In this document: positions 2,065 to 53,174 of the stretch, one piece after another
How positions within the stretch are numbered: position 1 is the stretch's first letter
Layout of the letters: each line of letters starts with the position of its first letter
Source: a virus
Virus record (IMG/VR): IMGVR_UViG_3300047319_001872
Coordinates: 248,001 to 312,000 of that record
Direction: 5' to 3' (one strand)
Length of the DNA: 64,000 nucleotides
The notes under the pieces: generated by a model
The model's input: the letters and a program-made list of their open reading frames with translations, nothing else
Told to the model about the DNA's origin: nothing
The model's database searches: none
Position numbers and translations under genes: made by a program

Positions 2065-4974
2065 ATGGCTGCAACCATCAGCGCATTGCTCTCGAACATG
2101 CAGAACTACCAGAATAACCCTGCGTTGATTCAGCAGGACATTCTGGACCACCTGGACATAGTCACCAGCGGTGAAGTCAATATCGTCGACCCGTCCAACC
2201 CCTTTGTGTTCGGACTGGAGTCAGCGACCGTGTGCACCGCGGGCATGATGAGCAAGAGCGATACCAATACGCGACGTCAGTATCCGCAGTTGGCACAAAC
2301 CCCGGAAGACCTGTATTACCACATGTCGGACTGGGACTACATCAACCGGTTTGCCGCCCCTTCGGTGGCGCTCTTTTCCTTCATCTTCGATAAGGATGAG
2401 TTGATCTCCAAGCTGGTGACTGACCCCGCGACCGGGGTGTCCCAGATCGTGATCCCACGCAACACCGTGGTGATGATTTCGGGCGTGCAGTTTAGTCTGC
2501 AGTACCCGATCGTGATTCGCCAGATGCAACACGGTGGTCTGAATGTGACGTATGACGGCAGCGAGCCGTCGCCGTTGCAGGAACTGACCTCCAATGTGAT
2601 CGACTGGGAAATCCGCACGGTCAATGGCACGAACTGGCTCTTCTTTGATGTGCCACTGTACCAGTTCAATATCCTGTCCACGCAGCAAGGGGTGGTGCTC
2701 GCTACCAAGTGGCAGACCACCATCAGCTTTAGCGACCAGTTCTACTATGCTCGCGTGTGGGCTGAAAACAGTGACGGCACCTGGACTGAACTGCTCACGA
2801 CGCATTCGATCGAAGTCTACGATCCGACCACGCCGACCGCAGTCCTGCAAGTGGTGAACCAGACGCTCACGGTCACGATTCCGCAGATCTATATCACTAG
2901 CGGGCAGGTGAAGACGTCGGTGCGGGTGGACCTGTATCAGACCAAGGGCGACATCAACATGGATCTGTCGTCGTATCCGCAGAGCGCCTATTCGGCGAAC
3001 TGGCTGGCGATCGATGCGAACGACAATCTGCCGACCAACTTCTCGGCACCGCTGAAGGGCTTTAACCAGCTGGCGATCTGGTCCAATGATCGGACCGTGG
3101 ATGGCAATAACGGGCTGACGTTCAGTCAGCTGCGTCAGCGCGTGATGACCAACTCGACCGGTGCGCAGAACCTGCCGATCACCAACGTGCAGGTGCAAGC
3201 GGCATTGCAGAACATCGGCTACGATGTGGTCGAGAATGTGGATAACATCACCAACCGGGTGTTCCTGGCCACACGTGCGATGCCGGACCCGACCAACCCG
3301 GCCTTGATTACGTCTGCGGCGGCTTCGATCGAGACACTCTCGACGACACTTACCGCGCTGACGACACTCGAGTCGGTGATCAATAACGGTAACTCACTCA
3401 CGATCACGCCGGACACCATCTACCAGAGCACCAGTGGTGTGGTGAGCGCGGTGCCCACCGCAGCTGTGAAAGCGTTGCTGGCTCTGCCACCGGATCAACG
3501 GGCACTGGCTGTCACCAAAGGGCAGTACTTCTACTCACCCTGGCATTACGTGCTGGATAACACGGGACCGGAGTTTGAAGTGCGCCCGTACTATTTGGAT
3601 GCGCCGCTCGCGGACACCACGTTCTTTGTCTCGGAGAATGATACGACGCTCTTGCAAGTGAGCACCAAGAGCTACCAGATCACCAAGAACGCTGACGGCT
3701 CAGGCTATACGCTCACGATCAGTACGTCGTCCAACGATGGCTGGAAAGCCCTGGCCGATGACAAGGTGTATGTGCAGCTCGCTTACATCCCGGAAGGCGA
3801 GAGCGGGTATGCTTACCTGATGGGCACGCTGGTCGGGACCAACACCAGCACCAACGAGCGGACCTTCTCGTTTGATCTGTCGTCGAACTTCAATGTCGAC
3901 TCCAACGACATGTTGCAGTTGAAGAAGTTCCTGATGTACACGACCGATCCGATGCTCACTGCCTGTAGTCTCACGCAAACGTTCGAGATTCTGTACGCCG
4001 CGGACGCTGTGATGGATACGCAGTGGAAGCCGGGTGAGATCGACGCGATGCTCGGCATGTTCCTCTTGCCTGCAACCGCGGTGGGTGTGACGCACGAGCA
4101 AATCCGCGTGAAGTTCGGCTCTTCGTTGACGACACTCTGGGCATCGACGCGTACGGTGAATGATGCGGTCACCTATCGGACTTGGCCGATGGACGTGCTC
4201 TCGTACTACACGAACGATGTGTATGGCGACCCGGCGGTGACGATTGTCAATGGTCAGCTGGTGCAAAACATCGTGCACCGTGCAGGCGACCCGGTGATTA
4301 ATCCGGCAACGGGCCAACAGGTCTTGCTGCATGCGACAGGCGATGTGATGAGGGACGTGGATGGCAAGCCGATTCCGATCGGCACGCAAGACACTCTGCG
4401 TCAGATTGACCTGATGTTGCTTGAAGGCGTGTACTGGTTCGCTACCGATGCGATTGCCACGGGCTACCGCACTGAGCTGGTGGATACGGTACTCGCCTGG
4501 TTGACGGAAGACCTGGTGAGCTTCCAGGCGAGGTTGCTGGAGCAGACCCGTATCTACTTCTATCCGAAGGCGACCACGGGGAACATCAACGTGATGATCA
4601 ACGGGGGCTTGAAAACCACCGTCGCAGCTGGTCAGTCGTTTAAGATCACGCTCTATGTTCCGGCTTCCGTCTACAGCAACAGCGATCTGCAGAATCAACT
4701 GGTCAAGACCACGATCAGCACGATCTCGACGCAGCTGGAGAATGCAACCGTCGCCGATTCGGCGCTGAAGGTAGCGCTGATGAAGATCTACGGCGAGGAT
4801 GTGATTGACTGTGAAGTCGCGGGTCTGGGTGGCTCGGGCTCGATCTCGGTGATGACGGTGATTGATGCATCGAACAAGCTCAGCATCCGTAAGCGTCTCT
4901 TTGCCCAGTCGGATAACAGTCTGATTGTTCAGGAAGACGTGAGCGTCAACTTCATCCAGCATCAGCTGAGCTAA
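2065..4974 (+). CDS. Large virion protein, possibly baseplate wedge
   Basis: A 969-residue protein with an AAGGA site before its ATG. The sequence is Thr/Ser/Val/Asn-rich with alternating hydrophobic patterns typical of phage tail and baseplate proteins. The last 150 residues alternate helices and strands ('LKVALMKIYGEDVIDCEVAG'), which resembles the C-terminal part of gp6/J-type baseplate wedge proteins. That likeness is by eye only. It is the second gene of a three-gene plus-strand unit ending at a strong terminator at 5271. A virion role is likely; the exact position in the particle is inferred. Confidence 0.6.
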   Translation: MAATISALLSNMQNYQNNPALIQQDILDHLDIVTSGEVNIVDPSNPFVFGLESATVCTAGMMSKSDTNTRRQYPQLAQTPEDLYYHMSDWDYINRFAAPSVALFSFIFDKDELISKLVTDPATGVSQIVIPRNTVVMISGVQFSLQYPIVIRQMQHGGLNVTYDGSEPSPLQELTSNVIDWEIRTVNGTNWLFFDVPLYQFNILSTQQGVVLATKWQTTISFSDQFYYARVWAENSDGTWTELLTTHSIEVYDPTTPTAVLQVVNQTLTVTIPQIYITSGQVKTSVRVDLYQTKGDINMDLSSYPQSAYSANWLAIDANDNLPTNFSAPLKGFNQLAIWSNDRTVDGNNGLTFSQLRQRVMTNSTGAQNLPITNVQVQAALQNIGYDVVENVDNITNRVFLATRAMPDPTNPALITSAAASIETLSTTLTALTTLESVINNGNSLTITPDTIYQSTSGVVSAVPTAAVKALLALPPDQRALAVTKGQYFYSPWHYVLDNTGPEFEVRPYYLDAPLADTTFFVSENDTTLLQVSTKSYQITKNADGSGYTLTISTSSNDGWKALADDKVYVQLAYIPEGESGYAYLMGTLVGTNTSTNERTFSFDLSSNFNVDSNDMLQLKKFLMYTTDPMLTACSLTQTFEILYAADAVMDTQWKPGEIDAMLGMFLLPATAVGVTHEQIRVKFGSSLTTLWASTRTVNDAVTYRTWPMDVLSYYTNDVYGDPAVTIVNGQLVQNIVHRAGDPVINPATGQQVLLHATGDVMRDVDGKPIPIGTQDTLRQIDLMLLEGVYWFATDAIATGYRTELVDTVLAWLTEDLVSFQARLLEQTRIYFYPKATTGNINVMINGGLKTTVAAGQSFKITLYVPASVYSNSDLQNQLVKTTISTISTQLENATVADSALKVALMKIYGEDVIDCEVAGLGGSGSISVMTVIDASNKLSIRKRLFAQSDNSLIVQEDVSVNFIQHQLS

Positions 4975-25090: not shown

Positions 25091-25543
25091 ATGATCATTT
25101 ACGATGAACCGCGTAACATCTTTGAAGTAACGGAGCAAACGCTCGTTAATCCCGTGAACACGCAAGGTGTCATGGGTGCTGGCTTAGCGTTGGCTTTTCG
25201 CAGTACCTTTCCCGGTCTGTTTGAAGAGTATCGCGACGCTTGCCAGCAGGAGGTGTTTACGCGGCGAGGTTTCTTCGTGTACGACGTTGACGCTTCGCGC
25301 AAGGTGTTGTGTTTGCCCACTAAGCGAGAATGGCGCCATCCTTCGAGACTGGAATGGATCGAAGAAGGCCTTTGGTATTTGTCGAGAGAGTATGAGCACT
25401 ACGGGATTACCTCACTGGCGATTCCTGAGGTAGGCTGCGGGCGAGGTCAGTTAGGATGGGCAGATGTGCGCCCTCTGATCTATCAGTACCTGGACCCTAT
25501 CGCGTTACCAGTGGGGATTTGTTTAAGCCCCTTTGCAGTCTAA
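25091..25543 (+). CDS. Macrodomain protein (DarG/TARG1-like ADP-ribose hydrolase)
   Basis: A 150-residue single macrodomain. The ADP-ribose loop is 'NPVNTQGVMGAGLALAFR' (20-37), followed by 'CLPTKREWR' with the candidate catalytic Lys at 78 and the second loop 'IPEVGCGRGQLGW' (111-123). This arrangement is that of TARG1 and of DarG, the antitoxin that removes ADP-ribose from DNA modified by DarT. In a phage it could undo host DarT-type defence or recycle ADP-ribose. It is followed after 16 bases by a diverged copy. Family assignment is strong; the defence role is inferred. Confidence 0.88.
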   Translation: MIIYDEPRNIFEVTEQTLVNPVNTQGVMGAGLALAFRSTFPGLFEEYRDACQQEVFTRRGFFVYDVDASRKVLCLPTKREWRHPSRLEWIEEGLWYLSREYEHYGITSLAIPEVGCGRGQLGWADVRPLIYQYLDPIALPVGICLSPFAV

Positions 25544-25559
25544 CTGACTGGGAACGACG

Positions 25560-26018
25560 ATGATCATCTACGAAACAGAGTGCGAACAGTTACGTGCAGA
25601 AGCGCAGACGCTTCTCACGCCCATCAACATCGATGCCGTGGGGGGCGGAGGTTTGCCTGCGGCGTTTCGGTATGGATTCCCCGGACTCTTTAAAGCCTAT
25701 TGCTGGGCCATGAAAAAGGGGATCTTCGAAAACGATAGCCTGTTTGTCTACGACGTGTCGCCCGAGCGGAAAATCGCCTGCATGCCGATGAAGCAGCACC
25801 AGCGGTACAGCACCGAAGAAAAGCTCGAGTACCTCGAAGAAAGTCTGATGGTAGTGGCCACCAGCTACCAGAAGTACGGTATCATCTCCATGGCACTCAA
25901 TGAAATCGGTTACGGTGACACTGCGCTACCATGGGAAAAGGTCAGGCCGGTCATCCAGCGTTGTTTTGGATCGATCGATCTGCCGGTGGGGATTTGTCGG
26001 GGAGTAGTACCTGTGTAA
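25560..26018 (+). CDS. Diverged second macrodomain protein
   Basis: A 152-residue paralogue of the upstream gene that aligns almost without gaps ('MIIY', 'AFR.GFPGLF.AY', 'FVYDV....K..C.P.K'). The first loop is altered: N20 becomes T and 'NTQGVMGAGLA' becomes 'NIDAVGGGGLP'. The second loop GCG becomes GYG. Lys78 is kept at the same position. It may bind a different ligand, have lost catalysis, or act as a partner of the first copy. Confidence 0.82.
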   Translation: MIIYETECEQLRAEAQTLLTPINIDAVGGGGLPAAFRYGFPGLFKAYCWAMKKGIFENDSLFVYDVSPERKIACMPMKQHQRYSTEEKLEYLEESLMVVATSYQKYGIISMALNEIGYGDTALPWEKVRPVIQRCFGSIDLPVGICRGVVPV

Positions 26019-45052: not shown

Positions 45053-46522
45053 TTAAGCGGCTTCAGCCAACAACATCATCTTGTTCCACTTGGCTTGATC
45101 CACCGATTCGTCCGTGTCATGCAAGAAGTTCGCCGTGGTGGCAATCACCGGTTTAGGTTGCGCGAGGTTACTCGACACCTTCTTCGGCTGGTCGAGACCA
45201 AACGTGCTCTTATGCGGCGCCAGGGCCCGCAGTTCTTCGGTCGTGTAGTTATCCAGACACGGCGTGAAGTTCAGCTGGTCACCATCGAAGTCCGCGTTCA
45301 AGCCCTTCACGTCCAGAATACTGATCGAGACGGTCGGGATCTCCACCACAGACTTCACTTGCGTCACATACACGAGCTGCGCCGAGCCGCGTTCCAACGA
45401 GGGGTTACGCTGCATGATACACGGAATGCCTTTGTACGGACATTCTGCGATCAGCTCCTGGAACAACTGATCCAGGTCCTCGTTGTAAATCGACGCGTGC
45501 TTGTTCAGGAACGCGATTCCTTCGTTCGGTGTGTAACCACGCCGTATCAGCTTATTCATCAAGTGGATACGGAACACCGACAGACCGATCCCCCACGGAA
45601 TGTGGATTTCCTCGTAATCGTGCGCATCCGTCAACGACGAGATCACGGCACGGAACGAGAAGTGGGAACGAGAGCCGAACACGTGCTTACGGAAAATCCC
45701 CTGCTTCTTGGCGAGCGTGGTCTTATACAGACCCTCGTAAAACTCCGCCAATTGCGAGATCGTCTTCACGGTCCGATTCTCTTTCACACGCACGGTGTGA
45801 GAGGTCAGGGAGGAATCGATGCCTGCCATCATGCGAATCGCATCCACCGCACCGGTGATGATGGGGTCCACATAGGTGCCGACGTTGCTCTCCTCGATCA
45901 CGAGAAGCGCCCGGTTCGGCAAGGGCAGGTGATCGCTAAACACGCAGTCCCGTTGATTGCGTATCGCCGTCATGAGCTCCAGATGCTCCTCACTCTTGCG
46001 ATACTCCTTGAGATCCATGAGCAACGCCATGATCTCGTCGAACTTGTTCACGAAGTTGTTCAACCCGCGCGGGCAGTTCAACTCCTCCAGCCGATACACG
46101 ACCTGGGGCTTACGCACCGGCGGCGCGTAGTTCGTGTCACAAATCCAGCGAATGATCTCATAACCACTGCGGGTGAATCGCTTCTTCAACATCATCCACA
46201 CGATCGGGTTGATCAGGCCATCGACGCCTTTCGGCCTTCTGATCCACACGATCGGTTCGAGGTCACGCTCCACATGCGAGCGGACTTCTGTGCCGCAGGA
46301 GCCACATACCACACCGACGTTGTAGCCACCAACGATCTCCCCACATTCGCACGACGGCAGATTGCTCAGCAAATCGCCCGAATAGGTGGTATAGATCAGT
46401 CGGTTAAACTCTTGCCGATCCTTCTCCGATGATTCCGCAATCTCGTTGATGATCTTCGGCTCGCGCGTCGAGTGCTGGTAAAACAGCTCGTTGAAATTGA
46501 TCAAACTGAGTCTTACGCCCAC
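45053..46522 (-). CDS. Non-virion RNA polymerase beta' N-terminal part
   Basis: A 489-residue protein with a GTG start after AAGGAG. The catalytic Mg-binding motif NADFDGDQLN is at 409-418. A zinc-ribbon 'CECGEIVGGYNVGVVCGSCG' lies near residues 58-77, as in the N-terminus of cellular beta'. It ends about 70 residues after the active-site loop, where the split occurs; the rest is the gene at 30829. It matches phiKZ gp55, directly downstream of the chimallin gene as there. Confidence 0.92.
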   Translation of the reverse strand: MGVRLSLINFNELFYQHSTREPKIINEIAESSEKDRQEFNRLIYTTYSGDLLSNLPSCECGEIVGGYNVGVVCGSCGTEVRSHVERDLEPIVWIRRPKGVDGLINPIVWMMLKKRFTRSGYEIIRWICDTNYAPPVRKPQVVYRLEELNCPRGLNNFVNKFDEIMALLMDLKEYRKSEEHLELMTAIRNQRDCVFSDHLPLPNRALLVIEESNVGTYVDPIITGAVDAIRMMAGIDSSLTSHTVRVKENRTVKTISQLAEFYEGLYKTTLAKKQGIFRKHVFGSRSHFSFRAVISSLTDAHDYEEIHIPWGIGLSVFRIHLMNKLIRRGYTPNEGIAFLNKHASIYNEDLDQLFQELIAECPYKGIPCIMQRNPSLERGSAQLVYVTQVKSVVEIPTVSISILDVKGLNADFDGDQLNFTPCLDNYTTEELRALAPHKSTFGLDQPKKVSSNLAQPKPVIATTANFLHDTDESVDQAKWNKMMLLAEAA

Positions 46523-46687: not shown

Positions 46688-48598
46688 TTACCAGCGCGAG
46701 CTGAAGCCCGTGCGACCCCAGCCAGCGCCTTGGTTCGACTGACCGCCGAAGCCTGCCGCGAACAGACCGGTTGCACCCGGAGCCATGAGCAGGCCGTTGG
46801 CGAACTGCGCCGTTGCACGCTCTTGACCCGCGACGTCGCCGAACGGGTATTGTGCACGCAGGACGAGACCCGCATCCACGCAGCCCTTGGCCAGCGCTTC
46901 CATGAACGCACCGTCCAGCGTTGCACGACGTGCGAAACCCGTGAAGGTTGCGTCGCCGACCAGACCCTGGATGATGTTCTTGCGACGCGCGAGACGCTGC
47001 GCGGGCGAGATTTGCAGATTGACAAACGTGTCGCTCCAGTCCTTGATGACCGTCGGGTCCTTCTCGCCGATCAGGTTCGCTACCGCGAGGTAGTCGATGT
47101 CGCGGATGTCGCGCTTGCGACCTTGCTGGTCGACGTACCAACCCAGGTGAATGCGGTTGTTGTTGTCGAACGCAACGCGGCCCGTGCCGTTCGTGTAGTG
47201 CTTCAGGAAGTTGCCGTTCGTCAGCGTCTGCGCTGCTTCGATGATGAACTCGTTGGCCTTCTGGCTGCCTTCAGCAGCAGCCGCGAACACCGAGTTCGAC
47301 CAGGTCGACGGACCGCATTCCGGCACGTCGATCGAGAGCAGCAGGCCCGGACGCACGAAAGCTTGCAGCAGCTTGTGCAGCGTGCCTTGTGCCGTGAACG
47401 CGTCCGACTTCGTGTCGATGCGCGCGCCGATACCGTTCGCGTTGCCTTCCGGGTTCGCTTCGATACCGATTGCACCGATGTCGTGCATGTCGATGCCTTG
47501 CGCGTAAGGACGCGGTGCGAAACCACGTGCCCAGGCGTTGCCGTCACGCAGCGTGAGTGCCTGAACCAGCGCGAACAGCTGAGCCGGAACGGTCATCAGC
47601 TCGAGCGTTTCCAGGTGCGTCATCACGAAGTGCGTGATGTACAGCGGGTTGAACTGCTGTTGCTGCGACTGACCCCACTGCGCGTACGGGTTCGCGGTCG
47701 GTGCGACCGGGTCCCACACGAGGTCGAGGAAGCCGCCGACTTGCGAGACCTTCGTCGCGCGTGCGTCTGCATTGGCGCCCTGGCCGGTCGTGATTGCCGT
47801 GGCGATCAGGTCGATCATCACGTCGGTGCGGATCGGCTCGCCGACCGGGTCAACCAGCTGGTCGTGGTTGAACGCGACGCGTGCGGTCAGGTTCGAGTCA
47901 CGTGCTGCGCCTGCGAGGTTCAGGTCGCGGAAGTCCGGACGCATGCGGTTCAGTTCGTGGTTCGCTGCAAACAGTGCGTTCGCGGCGAGCTGGTACACGA
48001 GCTGTTCGTCTGCGACGTCGAACGAACGCGGCACGACTTCGGCTTCAGCGTCGATCAGACGCGCGCCGTTGAACGTACGGGCCACGGCATCGGCCACGAC
48101 TTCGCGGAACTTGTCGTCCCACACGTCGCCGTCGACACGCTGGATTTCGACGTTCTGACCGTTGATCTGGTCGTACTTCGGCGGGAACGGTTCGCCCGAG
48201 CCTGCGAGGATCAGCGTGTGGTACGCGACGCCCAGGTCCAGGTCGTTCTTGTCGAACAGGGCCACGATGAGCGCCGAGCGCGCGATCGCCGGGTTGTTGT
48301 TCATGTCGAGCGGGAGCAGCTTGATCTCGAAAGCCGGGTTCGCCGACTTGTACGTTTCGATCAGGGCCTTCTCGAGCTTGACGAGCACTTCAGCAGCCGG
48401 GTTGCGGCCCATCGGTGCGTTGCCCAGGCGGCCGAGCGAGCGGAAGCTGAAGCCCGCCGGTGCGGATTGTTGTTGCTGGTTCATGGTGCCTCGCGGTTGA
48501 GAGTTCTGGTTATCCTTGGCACGGGTGAAACCCGCTGCCATTTGCGTTTCCGCCGGAGCTGCTGCTTGGCCTTCTTGGCCCGGTTGTTCGATTGCCAT
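46688..48598 (-). CDS. chmA: Chimallin-like major nuclear shell protein
   Basis: A 636-residue protein with AAGGAATAG before its ATG. The first 50 residues are Gln/Ala-rich and disordered; the body is alpha/beta; the last 30 are Gly/Gln/Phe-rich and flexible. Size is that of chimallin (about 630 residues in phage 201phi2-1). It has its own early-type promoter 85 bases upstream and a strong terminator, as expected for the most abundant early protein, and lies directly before the gp55-type gene, as phiKZ gp54 does. Chimallin tiles into the lattice that encloses phage DNA. Identity is by size, order and expression signals; no short signature motif exists. Confidence 0.78.
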   Translation of the reverse strand: MAIEQPGQEGQAAAPAETQMAAGFTRAKDNQNSQPRGTMNQQQQSAPAGFSFRSLGRLGNAPMGRNPAAEVLVKLEKALIETYKSANPAFEIKLLPLDMNNNPAIARSALIVALFDKNDLDLGVAYHTLILAGSGEPFPPKYDQINGQNVEIQRVDGDVWDDKFREVVADAVARTFNGARLIDAEAEVVPRSFDVADEQLVYQLAANALFAANHELNRMRPDFRDLNLAGAARDSNLTARVAFNHDQLVDPVGEPIRTDVMIDLIATAITTGQGANADARATKVSQVGGFLDLVWDPVAPTANPYAQWGQSQQQQFNPLYITHFVMTHLETLELMTVPAQLFALVQALTLRDGNAWARGFAPRPYAQGIDMHDIGAIGIEANPEGNANGIGARIDTKSDAFTAQGTLHKLLQAFVRPGLLLSIDVPECGPSTWSNSVFAAAAEGSQKANEFIIEAAQTLTNGNFLKHYTNGTGRVAFDNNNRIHLGWYVDQQGRKRDIRDIDYLAVANLIGEKDPTVIKDWSDTFVNLQISPAQRLARRKNIIQGLVGDATFTGFARRATLDGAFMEALAKGCVDAGLVLRAQYPFGDVAGQERATAQFANGLLMAPGATGLFAAGFGGQSNQGAGWGRTGFSSRW

Positions 48599-48718: not shown

Positions 48719-49324
48719 TCACTCACTTGTATAGAATCCCGTCCACTGCTTGTGGCTGGGACGTTTACCACTCAAGACTTTGGCCAGATTAGCCTGGTCG
48801 AGATTGTGTTGCTTGCAAAACTCTACTACATTTTTACCACGGTGAACCGTACCATCAGGTGCTCTTAGGACGAATTCCTTTGCAAGCTTGTCAGCCTGCG
48901 CGGCGCGACCTTGATCGTTTTCCTTCGTACGACCCGTCTTCTTCTGAGCCATCTTCCGGACACGCTCAGAGGTCTCTTTTGTTTGACCAATCATTGCGGC
49001 ATGGTGTCGATCCAGCGTGCCGTTCTGAATGGCCTCAAAATGATTCTCTCTGGCAGTAATAAAACGACAGTTACCCGTCGTGTAATTCCCTGCATCGCCG
49101 TGGCGAGACAAATGAAACTGCTCAGCACTACGACCAATCTGATCGGGTTTCGTTAATCCAGCTTGGTTAGCCAGATTGAGATACTCCCTGAAACTCAGAT
49201 CGCGTCCAATTCCGCGCTGTTGAGCACTCTGGCGTTGAATCGCGTACTTCTGATACCAGGCTTGCGAATCTGCCTGATCAAACCCCGTTTCAGAACAGAT
49301 TTTAATTTGCTCTTCTACACGCAT
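48719..49324 (-). CDS. HNH-type homing endonuclease
   Basis: The start at 49324 (MRVEEQIK) follows GGAG with 6-base spacing. In 201 residues: 'RGIGRDLSFREYLNLA', 'HLSRHGDAGNYTTGNCRFIT' and 'RENHFEAIQ' make up a phage HNH-like core (His, Asn and final His/Asn placed as usual). The C-terminal 55 residues, 'VLRAPDGTVHRG..NVVEFCKQHN' and on, form a NUMOD1-like DNA-binding helix-turn-helix. It lies immediately upstream of the chimallin promoter. Free-standing genes of this kind spread by cutting related genomes. Confidence 0.82.
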   Translation of the reverse strand: MRVEEQIKICSETGFDQADSQAWYQKYAIQRQSAQQRGIGRDLSFREYLNLANQAGLTKPDQIGRSAEQFHLSRHGDAGNYTTGNCRFITARENHFEAIQNGTLDRHHAAMIGQTKETSERVRKMAQKKTGRTKENDQGRAAQADKLAKEFVLRAPDGTVHRGKNVVEFCKQHNLDQANLAKVLSGKRPSHKQWTGFYTSE

Positions 49325-49412
49325 CTTAAACTCCAACTTGTTACTGTCTAAGAGGGTGATATATTGCCGAGTTTTATTAGAGCAACATCAAACCTCGCTC
49401 ATAGGGGGGTCC

Positions 49413-49495: not shown

Positions 49496-50131
49496 TTACT
49501 TCGCCAATTCTGCCTGGCGACGCTGCTTGCGTGGCATCGCTTTGTGTTGCTGGAGCTTCTGGGCAGCGAGCTCTGCGTCCGTGTACTGGACGTTGGTGGT
49601 GACCCCGATGTAGGGACGCTTCAGTGCCACCTTAACTTCGCCGTCGTCTTGACGGTACACCGCGATATTGCCGGTCATGATGCCGTGGTACCACTGGCCG
49701 TCGAAGAGTGCCGCGATTTCCGGTTGATGATCGAACTCGGCCTTCTCGTGACAGATGAGCAAGTACTTGACCAAGCCCCATTCACAGGTGCGTGCGCTCG
49801 CCGGTTGCGGACGGTGGGCCATGAACTGCCAGAAGTGCTGCTGCTTCAGGTAGTTCATGTAGGCTTCTTGCTGCTGAGCCATCTCGAGCGACTTGGCTTG
49901 CTCTTCCGGGGTTTGTTCCGGATTGGCTGCCAGGCCTTCCAGCGTGATCTGTTCCAGTTCATCGGCGTTCATCACGTCGTCGAGCACCGGCACGCTTTTG
50001 CGCGGTTCGGCTTCGGCTTGTTCCTGCATGGCTTGTTCGACCATGAGACCCTCTTGGATCTCTGCCAGTCGTGCAGCATCTTCTTCCGAGACGGGCAGCA
50101 CAGCCTCGCTCTCTACCTTAACATCCATCAT
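49496..50131 (-). CDS. Unknown 211-residue protein, acidic then basic
   Basis: The ATG at 50131 overlaps the upstream stop (TGATG) with GGTGGA as ribosome site. The N-terminal half is acidic and Gln/Glu-rich, predicted disordered or coiled; the C-terminal half is ordered (about 110-185) and ends in a basic tail (HKAMPRKQRRQAELAK). Last gene of the ten-gene cluster. No family recognised. Confidence 0.62.
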   Translation of the reverse strand: MMDVKVESEAVLPVSEEDAARLAEIQEGLMVEQAMQEQAEAEPRKSVPVLDDVMNADELEQITLEGLAANPEQTPEEQAKSLEMAQQQEAYMNYLKQQHFWQFMAHRPQPASARTCEWGLVKYLLICHEKAEFDHQPEIAALFDGQWYHGIMTGNIAVYRQDDGEVKVALKRPYIGVTTNVQYTDAELAAQKLQQHKAMPRKQRRQAELAK

Positions 50132-50907
50132 CAGTTCCACCGATCGCGTTTTCTGTTCTTGGGCAAGGCGGGCCGCCGGGAGCTTTTCCCAGGGTTATTC
50201 ACCTCGAATGCGGGCATAGCGTGTACAACTTCTGCCAAGCCCAATGGCTCGACGTCACTTCTCATGGGATGCACCATCCCAGTAAGTTTTTCCAGGATGT
50301 TGCGCTCACTCATCCCGCGACCGCGCAGTTCTGACTTCAGTTCATCCTGGGTCGCGACCACGATAATGGGTAGATCTGATTGCCTAAGCAGATGCGTGAC
50401 GTGATTCCGAATCAGCATGTGCTCGTCAATATAGAGGATGGGGAGATCCTTTCGATCCAGGCGCCGCAGCATTCCATCTCCATCTGCTTCCACCACGGCC
50501 TTGAGAATATCCTTGACAATCTTCTCATCCGCGGGATCAAGCGCATGCAAGGGGGTGTCGAGTGCGACCTGGAGATCGGAGACGTCCAGACCCGACCGGT
50601 ACTCTACCTTAGTCTCAACTAGGAGCAGGTGCTTTTCCATCCCCTGAACAGGCCGTACACTGTAAGCTTCGATCACAAAAGGCGTCTTGCCTGGCGATTG
50701 CATTATGAACGGATCACGCCATGCACCCTTCTCGTGAGAACTCAGTCGCATTACAACTTGACCGCCCAGCTCAATGTCGACGTGACTGACAGATTGATCG
50801 ATCGGCGCACGGAGTTGTTGCTGGACATGATCAACGATCGCCACAATCCCATCGCCGTATTCCTGTACGATTGAGCGATAGAAGCCAGACTGTTCCGAAT
50901 CGGTCAT
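50131..50907 (-). CDS. Unknown 258-residue protein
   Basis: The start at 50907 (MTDSEQSGFY) overlaps the previous gene's end and has GGGAGGTGG upstream. The protein is alpha/beta with 'LPILYIDEHMLIRNHVTHLL' and 'LPIIVVATQDELKSEL' segments, reminiscent of a receiver- or nucleotide-binding fold, but no P-loop. It ends 'PKNRKRDRWN', one of several basic-Trp tails in this cluster. No family recognised. Confidence 0.6.
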   Translation of the reverse strand: MTDSEQSGFYRSIVQEYGDGIVAIVDHVQQQLRAPIDQSVSHVDIELGGQVVMRLSSHEKGAWRDPFIMQSPGKTPFVIEAYSVRPVQGMEKHLLLVETKVEYRSGLDVSDLQVALDTPLHALDPADEKIVKDILKAVVEADGDGMLRRLDRKDLPILYIDEHMLIRNHVTHLLRQSDLPIIVVATQDELKSELRGRGMSERNILEKLTGMVHPMRSDVEPLGLAEVVHAMPAFEVNNPGKSSRRPALPKNRKRDRWN

Positions 50908-51212
50908 TCCCACCACCTCCCTTTCTTATAGCGTGAGCCGGACTTCGGTCCATTCCGGCGCTTCTTCTTGCCCCGACGTTCATCGCGCGTCCGATAGTCC
51001 TGCATCGGGCCTTGGTTCATGTTGGTGTACGTTTTGGGTTCCGCAGGAGCGTTCCCATACAGCGACATCGAACTGGTATCTTGCGCAGCAACCGCAGCAT
51101 TCAGCGCCGCCAGTTGCATCAGCATGCGAGCCCGGCTGCGAGTACTGCCTGGACTATAGTGAGCGATCGTGCCCACGTTGATGTGGGGCTTGGTGCGTTC
51201 GAACTTAGCCAT
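50904..51212 (-). CDS. Small basic protein with EF-Tu N-terminal mimic
   Basis: A 102-residue protein that starts [18 protein letters not shown]. Beta-proteobacterial EF-Tu begins [20 protein letters not shown]; apart from a two-residue gap the phage protein matches at all but two positions across this stretch. After that the likeness stops: the EF-Tu P-loop (GHVDHGKT) is replaced by 'AHYSPGSTR', so no GTP binding is expected. The C-terminal 35 residues are strongly basic ([10 protein letters not shown]...YKKGRWWE). GAGGGG precedes the ATG, which adjoins the upstream stop. The function is unknown; mimicry of EF-Tu for binding partners or as a decoy is inferred. Confidence 0.85.
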   Translation of the reverse strand: [102 protein letters not shown]

Positions 51213-51482
51213 CTACAACCCCTCGAACCAGGAGACGACCATCGGGATCGCCAACACAAAGAAGAGTGCGACCGCACCGCGCTCGCGCCAATACCACTTG
51301 TCGTCTGGATACTGATAGACAGTGCGCTTCAGCACGTACTCATCGACACCGTGCGTGACGATGCTTTTCGTGGTGACGGGCACTTGCTGGCCCTGGAAGT
51401 AAGCCCGCGTACCCCAGGCGCTGACGATCCACAACAACGAGTAGACGACGCGAAACACCGACCACCAGTTGATGTTATTCAC
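51213..51482 (-). CDS. Small membrane protein, two spans
   Basis: A GTG at 51482 is chosen: GGAG lies 7 bases before it and it overlaps the upstream gene. The 89-residue product has hydrophobic stretches near 8-26 (FRVVYSLLWIVSAWG) and 66-86 (GAVALFFVLAIPMVV), with a polar loop between. Probably inserts in the inner membrane. It adjoins the EF-Tu-mimic gene. Confidence 0.6.
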   Translation of the reverse strand: MNNINWWSVFRVVYSLLWIVSAWGTRAYFQGQQVPVTTKSIVTHGVDEYVLKRTVYQYPDDKWYWRERGAVALFFVLAIPMVVSWFEGL

Positions 51483-51759
51483 TTTTCGTCTCCTCAGGCG
51501 CCGTCGCACAGACCTTACAACACAACCGGCGCTTGTAGCCCAAGAAGTGATGACGGCAATGCAGGCAAATACATTCGTACATGCCGTTTTCATGCGCGAA
51601 GTCTTCCGGCCAGTGACGCTCCGTGCTTTGCGGATGCTTACGATTGAATCCGGCGATAATGGCGGCGTCCAGTTTATCGCGCTGGGCTTCCAGGCGCTGC
51701 ACGATCGCTGCCCTGGCGATCTCGGCAGGTGTGGGGTGGGGCTGGGTCTCGTTGGTCAT
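51475..51759 (-). CDS. Small zinc-ribbon protein
   Basis: A 94-residue protein with Cys pattern 'YECICLHC...RRLCCKVC' near 61-85, a likely zinc ribbon, after a helical N-terminus. The ATG at 51759 overlaps the previous stop (ATGA). Zinc ribbons of this size often bind RNA polymerase or nucleic acid. No family named. Confidence 0.62.
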   Translation of the reverse strand: MTNETQPHPTPAEIARAAIVQRLEAQRDKLDAAIIAGFNRKHPQSTERHWPEDFAHENGMYECICLHCRHHFLGYKRRLCCKVCATAPEETKSE

Positions 51760-51980
51760 GCTGCTTCTCGTTCTTGGTATCGTGCTAATGTGGCTTCGGC
51801 TTCTTCGAGTGCAGCGCGCACTTCTGCTAGGCGATTCGCTGCTTCCTCGACAGTCCAGGCTTCACCACCCCGTTGGGCGCTATGCACGATCCGCCCAAAC
51901 TGATGCTGGATCGCGCGAGCGCCGCGCTCTTGTTCCTGTCGCCATGACGGCGCCCATGATTTGTTCTGACGCTTGGCCAT
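51756..51980 (-). CDS. Small coiled-coil protein, 74 residues
   Basis: The product is basic at the N-terminus (MAKRQNKSWAPSWRQEQERG) then a coiled coil (EEAANRLAEVRAALEEAEAT). Its stop overlaps the next start. No family recognised. Confidence 0.55.
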   Translation of the reverse strand: MAKRQNKSWAPSWRQEQERGARAIQHQFGRIVHSAQRGGEAWTVEEAANRLAEVRAALEEAEATLARYQEREAA

Positions 51981-51986
51981 GCTCGT

Positions 51987-52166
51987 TCACCGATGATTCC
52001 ACCACTGACGACTACGTTGGTTCTTCATGCGCTTAGCCTGTCGCTCTCGGTCTTCTTGACGTTGTTCTGCGGCGGACAATGGCGCTGCCATAAACTCCAG
52101 CTCTTCTTCCGTGGGTGAATTCGGATCTGGCGGAAAGAGTTGGTTGAGAATGCGCTTGACGCTCAT
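51987..52166 (-). CDS. Very small protein, 59 residues
   Basis: The ATG at 52166 (MSVKRILNQL) follows AGGAGG with 4-base spacing. The product is acidic then basic, ending 'RMKNQRSRQWWNHR', a basic tail with a Trp pair like others in the cluster. No family recognised. Confidence 0.55.
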   Translation of the reverse strand: MSVKRILNQLFPPDPNSPTEEELEFMAAPLSAAEQRQEDRERQAKRMKNQRSRQWWNHR

Positions 52167-52174
52167 CACGCCTC

Positions 52175-52354
52175 CTAGAACAAATACCACATCAACCAGG
52201 CTGCCCCGGAGAGCAGAATGCCGATCACCAGAAAAGCCGCGGCGGCGATGCTTTGAAACGGCACCCGCTCAGGGGTGGCGAGGCCCAGTGCGGGCAGACC
52301 CACGCAAAGGACCGTCACCCAGATCGGCAACCAGTAAGAGTGAAAGGAGATCAT
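52175..52354 (-). CDS. Small membrane protein, 59 residues
   Basis: The ATG at 52354 overlaps the previous stop (ATGA). Two hydrophobic segments (PIWVTVLCVGLPALGLA and AAAAFLVIGILLSGAAW) fill most of the protein, which ends MWYLF. Size is within the range of holin-like proteins, but genes of this kind also act as superinfection or membrane-stress factors. Function unknown. Confidence 0.58.
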   Translation of the reverse strand: MISFHSYWLPIWVTVLCVGLPALGLATPERVPFQSIAAAAFLVIGILLSGAAWLMWYLF

Positions 52355-52707
52355 GTCGTGGTAAGGATGCTGGGGAGCTTCAAGATGATGTTCTCGAGTG
52401 CCGTGGGGACACCGCGATCGCGCGCCGAGCCGCGCGACATGGCAAACGAGAAATAGGTACGGATCTTCGCGACCAGTTCCGTATCGGCAACATCGCACGT
52501 GTAGATGCTGGTGTTCGCATTCGGCGTGCCTTGAAACGAATCGATCAGCAGCGCGCAGGCGCGCGACATGTAGGGTTCGGCACTGATGTCTTTCTCATCG
52601 AAGACCTCCGGGTGCTGACGAATGAAACTGGTCCAGCCACGGATAATCCCAACACTGGCGATGAGGTTATCCGGCTCCACGGTTTCCCGTGTTTGATCGA
52701 AATTCAT
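52351..52707 (-). CDS. Unknown 118-residue protein
   Basis: The start at 52707 (MNFDQTRETV) follows GGAG and overlaps the end of the previous gene. The product is a compact mixed alpha/beta soluble protein with 'RACALLIDSFQG' and a C-terminal 'LENIILKLPSILTTT'. No family recognised. Confidence 0.58.
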   Translation of the reverse strand: MNFDQTRETVEPDNLIASVGIIRGWTSFIRQHPEVFDEKDISAEPYMSRACALLIDSFQGTPNANTSIYTCDVADTELVAKIRTYFSFAMSRGSARDRGVPTALENIILKLPSILTTT

Positions 52708-52955
52708 TTGCGTTTTCTCCGGCGTTCTTTCTTGGGGGTATTCCACCACTCGCGCTGACGACTATACTGGGTGTCAAAGATGTTGCTCTTCGGCACCGGT
52801 TCGGTCTCAGCGCAGACGTAGCTGCTATTGGCCAACACTTCGATAATGGCTTTCGTGACGGTGGCGCTGGTACCATGCGAGACCATCAGAATCCGCTGCT
52901 GGCTTGTCGCCGCATGAATCGCCCGCAAGTCATCATCGTCGACAATGGCGGTCAT
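52704..52955 (-). CDS. Small protein with basic C-terminal tail, first in cluster
   Basis: GAAGGAATAG precedes the ATG at 52955. In 83 residues it has 'MVSHGTSATVTKAIIEVLA' and a tail 'YSRQREWWNTPKKERRRKRK', about a quarter of the protein. It is first in the coupled cluster that runs to 49496. No family recognised. Confidence 0.6.
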   Translation of the reverse strand: MTAIVDDDDLRAIHAATSQQRILMVSHGTSATVTKAIIEVLANSSYVCAETEPVPKSNIFDTQYSRQREWWNTPKKERRRKRK

Positions 52956-53174
52956 GAAACTATTCCTTCAAAGACCCAGCGGCGCAAAGCCACTTGGGCA
53001 GCAATCTGGCGATCCAGTGCGCCGCGCCGATACCCGCTCATCGTCTGCGAATTGCCACTGGCGTTGGTATTACGAATCCTGACACGATTCTTTATCGTCG
53101 TGCGTTTGACTACATTCACCCCGAACATCTGCTGGCCTCATCGTATGCTTATCTGACTAATATAGGACGTTTCT
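52956..53174. other. Intergenic region between divergent genes
   Basis: A 219-base gap without a convincing gene. On the minus strand TATATTAG (53164-53157) resembles the early core with one change and could serve the cluster at 52955, though it lies 200 bases away. AGGA for the plus gene is at its right end. Confidence 0.5.

Follow-up and report, generated by a model that had tools for sequence, protein, structure and literature searches.

An EF-Tu-like segment in a small jumbo-phage protein and in many otherwise dissimilar phage proteins

The locus in a phiKZ-type jumbo phage

The window, that is, the whole stretch of 64,000 nucleotides analysed here, covers bases 248001-312000 of a virus record of 313,315 bp. 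The record encodes chimallin, a phage RNA polymerase subunit and a divergent DNA polymerase, which together identify it as a nucleus-forming jumbo phage of the phiKZ type. The gene for chimallin, the shell protein of the phage nucleus, is located at 46688..48598 on the minus strand (PF25677, E 2.6e-55), and a phage RNA polymerase beta-type subunit is encoded at 45053..46522 on the same strand (phrog_2987, E 3.5e-158). Directly upstream of the chimallin gene lies an HNH endonuclease-type gene (phrog_2081, 48719-49336, minus strand), possibly a homing element. An island of small co-directional genes (49496..53128, minus strand) is found between these HNH and chimallin genes and a phrog_3938 gene. 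Burkholderia phage FLC9 has the same island arrangement, while the equivalent interval is organised differently in the more distant phages SURPRISE13, LucasX and PhiPA3.

The island contains the gene for a 102-residue protein with an EF-Tu-like head (50904..51212, minus strand), with strand, length and sequence as in the first-pass annotation. Its ATG immediately follows the stop codon of the preceding gene (TAGATG), a GAGGGG Shine-Dalgarno sequence precedes it in the window copy, and all relatives use the same start, in agreement with translation from the start originally proposed. The mimic is present as a single copy in the genome and has relatives in six IMG/VR loci and in phage FLC9 (gp386). 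The mimic was not found anywhere in the genomes of SURPRISE13, LucasX and PhiPA3, which are related nucleus-forming phages.

Three parts can be distinguished in the protein. Codons 1-18 (51159..51212, minus strand) form the EF-Tu-like block, corresponding to strand 1 and the start of the P-loop. Codons 24-44 (51081..51143, minus strand) form a variable stretch in which the P-loop GKTT is replaced and for which AF2 predicts a helix, at low overall confidence. Codons 59-102 (50907..51038, minus strand) comprise a second conserved block (KTYTNMN...) and a basic, Trp-containing tail ending in YKKGRWWE, with a tail charge of +10 against a genome mean of -0.03 (SD 2.6). The AF2 model of the window family, with a single helix at 24-44, is disordered for the most part (mean pLDDT 56), and the mimic is probably a small, mostly disordered protein. 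Its final codons overlap the Shine-Dalgarno-like GGGAGGTGG of the next gene, which accounts at the DNA level for some of the conservation seen in the tail. More specifically, the codons GGG AGG TGG of the KGRW tail overlap that Shine-Dalgarno in the window family, whereas HKGRW in Shewanella phage 1/4 and Vibrio phage F96 lies apart from the ribosome site, so the shared KGRW tail is only possibly a pure protein signal.

Basic C-termini (tail charge >=5) occur in five of the eight called genes of the island, and four of these have a tryptophan near the end (RKRDRWN, RSRQWWNHR, QREWWNTPKKERRRKRK and KKGRWWE), three of the four endings having close counterparts in FLC9. Tails combining a charge >=5 with a nearby terminal tryptophan were found in 8 of the 365 called genes of the window phage, four of them in the eight-gene island (enrichment p about 6e-6, in a test chosen after the data had been seen). 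A binding partner common to the basic-tailed proteins of the island is possible. PADLOC returned no defence model among the neighbouring genes except one weak orphan-methyltransferase match.

EF-Tu likeness and selection on the peptide

In a phmmer search against PDB sequences, residues 2-36 of the mimic match EF-Tu 4-38 (E 3e-6), with nothing else of note; within this range, residues 3-18 correspond to EF-Tu 5-20. The helix predicted after this block resembles helix 1 of EF-Tu in its placement, in a low-confidence model. Unlike EF-Tu, the mimic lacks GKTT, the other G motifs and domains II and III, and has no match to Pfam GTP_EFTU (PF00009). The early description of a non-GTPase with a lost P-loop and a basic tail is accordingly upheld.

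The relatives are 92-52% identical to the mimic overall and keep the EF-Tu block. In FLC9 and the IMG/VR locus L004, a 16-residue stretch is exactly as in EF-Tu, and the relative in locus L007 matches 20 of the first 21 residues of beta-proteobacterial EF-Tu, including the two residues absent from the window copy. The two-residue gap and two changes first described are indeed present in the window copy, but comparison with these three closer sequences indicates that they are slight drift inside its sub-lineage, away from a closer match.

Codon analysis covered six coding sequences, all from the window family. For residues 3-18 the dN/dS is 0.047, with an amino-acid identity of 0.90 and a pS of 0.56, compared to 0.27 for residues 19-58 and 0.094 for residues 59-102. 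Residues 3-18 are therefore the most constrained part of the protein, and the 18 N-terminal residues, whose loss in close relatives had been named as grounds for refutation, are retained there. As codons change while amino acids stay, selection acts on the peptide itself and not on the DNA. The conservation is thus not mainly due to a role of the RNA or in translation start, and the dN/dS pattern also argues against a neutral remnant.

Recurrence of the segment in phage proteins

The 24-residue start of EF-Tu was used as a query against 50,697 phage records at E<=10 and matched 124 of them, while the reversed 24-residue peptide had no match in the same records at that threshold. A chance match is thereby ruled out, as the original note had argued from the length of the likeness. 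EF-Tu residues 67-396, a query nearly fourteen times longer, matched 97 records; every one of the 60 listed is either a complete translational GTPase or a record of a host contig, and the ten genus names counted include neither Vibrio nor Erwinia nor Aeromonas. Capture of a whole tuf gene is ruled out as well, since the remainder of EF-Tu is absent among the matches listed. A minority of the 124 records are host tuf or other GTPases in phage-labelled contigs: the Mcat7 and MD-2021a matches were discarded as host tuf inside phage-labelled records, and the unannotated OR84x/OR85x matches look like host tuf, since they also match the rest of EF-Tu. The remaining records, about 75 by organism name, include hypothetical proteins (about 25 inspected). 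Among the weaker carriers, Muldoon, pir03, F96 and V1.187 each have an E of 1-10 and depend mainly on the absence of background matches and on a reading frame that agrees with an annotated gene.

Among the carriers are phages of Vibrio, Erwinia, Aeromonas, Pseudomonas, Serratia, Shewanella, Aggregatibacter and Burkholderia. The segment is N-terminal in Aaphi23 ORF27, henriette, 1.244.A, Va2, 150E35-1 and Jeremy, internal in the 109-residue proteins of Erwinia Machinavirus, PaBG gp192, Shewanella phage 1/4 and pir03, and C-terminal in Muldoon gp023 and L041. The IMG/VR scans added L036, L038, L041, L090, L091/L092 and L093. When the segment was masked, 28 proteins fell into 14 clusters between which no similarity was detected; L090, L091/L092 and L093, found after the clustering, could bring the total up to 17. 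Judged by sequence similarity, at least ten groups is the safer count, as short proteins may hide distant kinship. Exactly one copy of the segment is present in each of 20 carrier phage genomes. The protein first described is thus real, but it represents a module that recurs in many phages, which suggests that an EF-Tu look-alike evolved repeatedly in viruses. In the full-text literature on EF-Tu in phages, from whose coverage most subscription journals and preprints are absent, no description of the module was found.

The common core is NVGTIGH, corresponding to EF-Tu strand 1 leading into the P-loop, and carriers tend toward the form of the host clade (NVGTIGH, or NIGTIGH in L038); the window protein likewise contains N[VI]GTIGH with its flank. 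This core is the buried strand 1 plus the start of the P-loop, and the hosts of many carriers are marine Vibrio, Aeromonas, Pseudomonas or oral Aggregatibacter, so that the initial suggestion of a link to the elf18 region sensed by plant immune receptors finds no support. The P-loop GKTT is intact in none of the 27 tabulated motifs, so the carriers are not GTPases and the segment does not serve to bind nucleotides. The C-terminus is strongly basic in many carriers, and several of these C-termini end in R/K-W (e.g., YKHWR). An RGITI-like switch-1 sequence, the region that the Lit protease cleaves, is present only in Va2, 150E35-1 and Aeromonas phage D6.

Some carriers belong to the following PHROG families of unknown function: phrog_27465 (Aaphi23 ORF27 / S1249, 59 residues), phrog_12626 and phrog_28329 (the 109-residue Machinavirus proteins), and some members are annotated as 'elongation factor Tu' or 'GTPase'. 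These families contain the same EF-Tu segment but have no similarity to the window protein beyond it, and the window protein matches the 59-residue phrog_27465 profile over residues 3-25 only (E 1.5e-4) rather than over its full length. The proteins of Vibrio phages Va2 and 150E35-1, one of which is annotated as 'elongation factor Tu', come closer in their layout, with an EF-Tu-like N-terminus, an altered P-loop, a variable middle and a strongly basic C-terminus, and the tails of L007 and 150E35-1 are weakly similar (E 0.011). Unlike the window protein, they are longer and retain an RGIT(I/V) motif and most of the P-loop.

Several further observations concern the surroundings of the segment. 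Aeromonas phage D6 (L029, 2495-2905, plus strand) combines the EF-Tu head with an EF-G-like C-terminus, and so does the 229-kb IMG/VR phage L041; the respective ends, ERILFYTG / ERMLFYTG, were spotted by eye. A separate class of EF-G head mimics was rejected, as everything that an EF-G alpha-1 query matched was a whole EF-G gene, a host contig or a weak unannotated place. In three Machinavirus genomes (L027, L028 and L031) an acetyltransferase-type gene immediately precedes the segment gene, and an annotated macrodomain-type gene is found a few genes away from the latter. The window itself contains two tandem macrodomain (ADP-ribose-binding) genes at 25145-25474 and 25623-25952 on the plus strand, the second of which is under the Pfam cut-off here and over it in two related phages. 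An ADP-ribosylation theme built on the macrodomain near the Machinavirus gene was dropped, because macrodomains are also found in mimic-free phages and are absent from many carriers.

Possible roles of the segment

In the preferred reading, to which we assign a probability of roughly 0.35, the mimic acts as a decoy for, or competes for, a host factor able to recognise the EF-Tu start, and this factor is most likely a defence effector. The mimic would present the first 16-35 EF-Tu residues in imitation (strand 1, plus an altered P-loop and helix 1), fused to the basic tail, and by occupying the host factor it would keep translation protected during infection. The likeliest factor would be an abortive-infection or toxin-type effector attacking EF-Tu, and the basic tail may keep the peptide close to RNA or ribosomes. 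A host imitation that is under selection, catalytically stripped and set in different protein bodies looks like bait or a competitor. This reading draws on the peptide-level purifying selection, on the 14 masked clusters without detectable similarity and the carriers found after them, and on the single copy in each of 20 genomes together with the absence from three related nucleus-forming phages. It is further consistent with the lack of reversed-peptide matches and with the finding that, among the matches listed, EF-Tu 67-396 gives only whole GTPases or host contigs. That GKTT is never intact fits bait or a pseudo-substrate and excludes a working GTPase.

Defence effectors come first among the possible targets, since attacks on the G domain of EF-Tu are known for both Lit and an Rhs toxin. 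In the Lit/Gol system, a known phage-triggered attack on EF-Tu, the Lit protease cleaves EF-Tu after a capsid-peptide signal (as cited in PMC9712102). The window family differs in lacking the RGITI cleavage-site sequence and gives no sign of contact with Lit; as RGITI is absent from most carriers, a decoy for Lit cleavage does not fit most of them. According to its title, the work of Jurenas et al. 2022 (cited in PMC13324451 and PMC12396204) describes an Rhs toxin that ADP-ribosylates the EF-Tu P-loop. This ADP-ribosyltransferase targets the segment that the phage peptides imitate but is an interbacterial toxin. Its target is reportedly the P-loop aspartate of EF-Tu, which is missing from the window family, and the loss of the D21 region is at odds with a simple decoy substrate for a factor that modifies the P-loop. 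Furthermore, strand 1 is buried in folded EF-Tu and would scarcely be accessible to a factor acting on that form; the factor would have to recognise EF-Tu that is nascent, unfolded or cleaved. The macrodomain genes, not being specific to carriers, also count against the decoy reading, as does the lack of PADLOC defence models among the neighbouring genes beyond the one weak match. The broader proposal that many phage lineages independently acquired a 12-20-residue EF-Tu head as bait against a widespread, undescribed system recognising the nascent or unfolded start of EF-Tu is slightly less likely.

Close behind the decoy reading ranks a role in host takeover, which we consider a tentative alternative. 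Here the head would bind a normal partner of EF-Tu (a folding helper, EF-Ts, the ribosome, or, through strand exchange, EF-Tu itself) and the basic tail would bind RNA, so that the phage tunes host translation without any defence decoy. Basic tails in many carriers point in this direction, as do the early proteins that phiKZ-type phages send to ribosomes (PMC10914614). The EF-G-like pieces in D6 and L041 hint at translational GTPases more generally, but the Machinavirus proteins, V1.187, D6 and Muldoon have no basic tail. In addition, we know of no ribosome contact that uses EF-Tu strand 1 as a linear peptide. Among the roles proposed at the outset, a decoy or the binding of EF-Tu partners thus remain the best candidates, whereas a captured tuf 5' end acting as a leader for efficient translation is rejected in view of the varying codons with fixed residues (pS 0.56) and of the internal and C-terminal copies.

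It is improbable that the segment is a handling tag, which a general chaperone or a factor acting on nascent chains would take for the beginning of nascent EF-Tu and which would steer the folding, stability or location of diverse phage proteins. Its N-terminal, internal or C-terminal position in differing protein bodies would suit such a tag, but internal and C-terminal copies do not resemble a nascent N-terminus, and a single copy per phage genome is unlike a general tag. Slightly less credible is a remnant, a tuf 5' end picked up by chance and reused as raw coding sequence with no EF-Tu-related function. EF-Tu is among the most abundant proteins and its gene is highly expressed, broken tuf starts are common in assemblies, and the carriers tend to the host-clade form; against this stand the dN/dS of 0.05 in the block, the internal and C-terminal copies and the lack of matching fragments from the other 330 EF-Tu residues among the matches listed. 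A host-evolved trigger or trap on mobile elements, with the peptide marking competing phages or prophages instead of protecting its carrier, is very unlikely: Aaphi23 and S1249 do carry the segment in the nin region of lambdoid-type genomes, but most carriers are large myovirus-type or jumbo phages, lytic-looking, in which self-harm would not persist.

If the broader proposal is correct, the carriers would constitute a new class of counter-defence proteins and point to an unknown defence; as bait, the module would lead to a bacterial factor recognising the beginning of the cell's most abundant protein and would offer a ready affinity probe for it. Even without bait, the repeated imitation of one short, buried housekeeping segment by otherwise dissimilar phage proteins is unusual and open to direct testing, and would put right the database entries in which such proteins are named 'elongation factor Tu' or 'GTPase'.

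Beyond phages, 40 sampled plasmid matches were whole translational GTPases or unannotated places, with no short mimic seen among them, and most matches in bacterial genomes were broken tuf starts. In two gut Bacilli/Tenericutes MAGs (L066, 1481-1753, plus strand; L072, near 3620-3850, minus strand), a short EF-Tu-head ORF with a lysine-rich end lies between fusA and tuf and could be a degraded tuf duplication. In a Pelagibius MAG (L079, 6051-6287, minus strand), an apparent signal peptide is followed by a 21-residue EF-Tu-head stretch and a Pro/Lys-rich tail, and the product is possibly a secreted EF-Tu-head protein of a bacterium.
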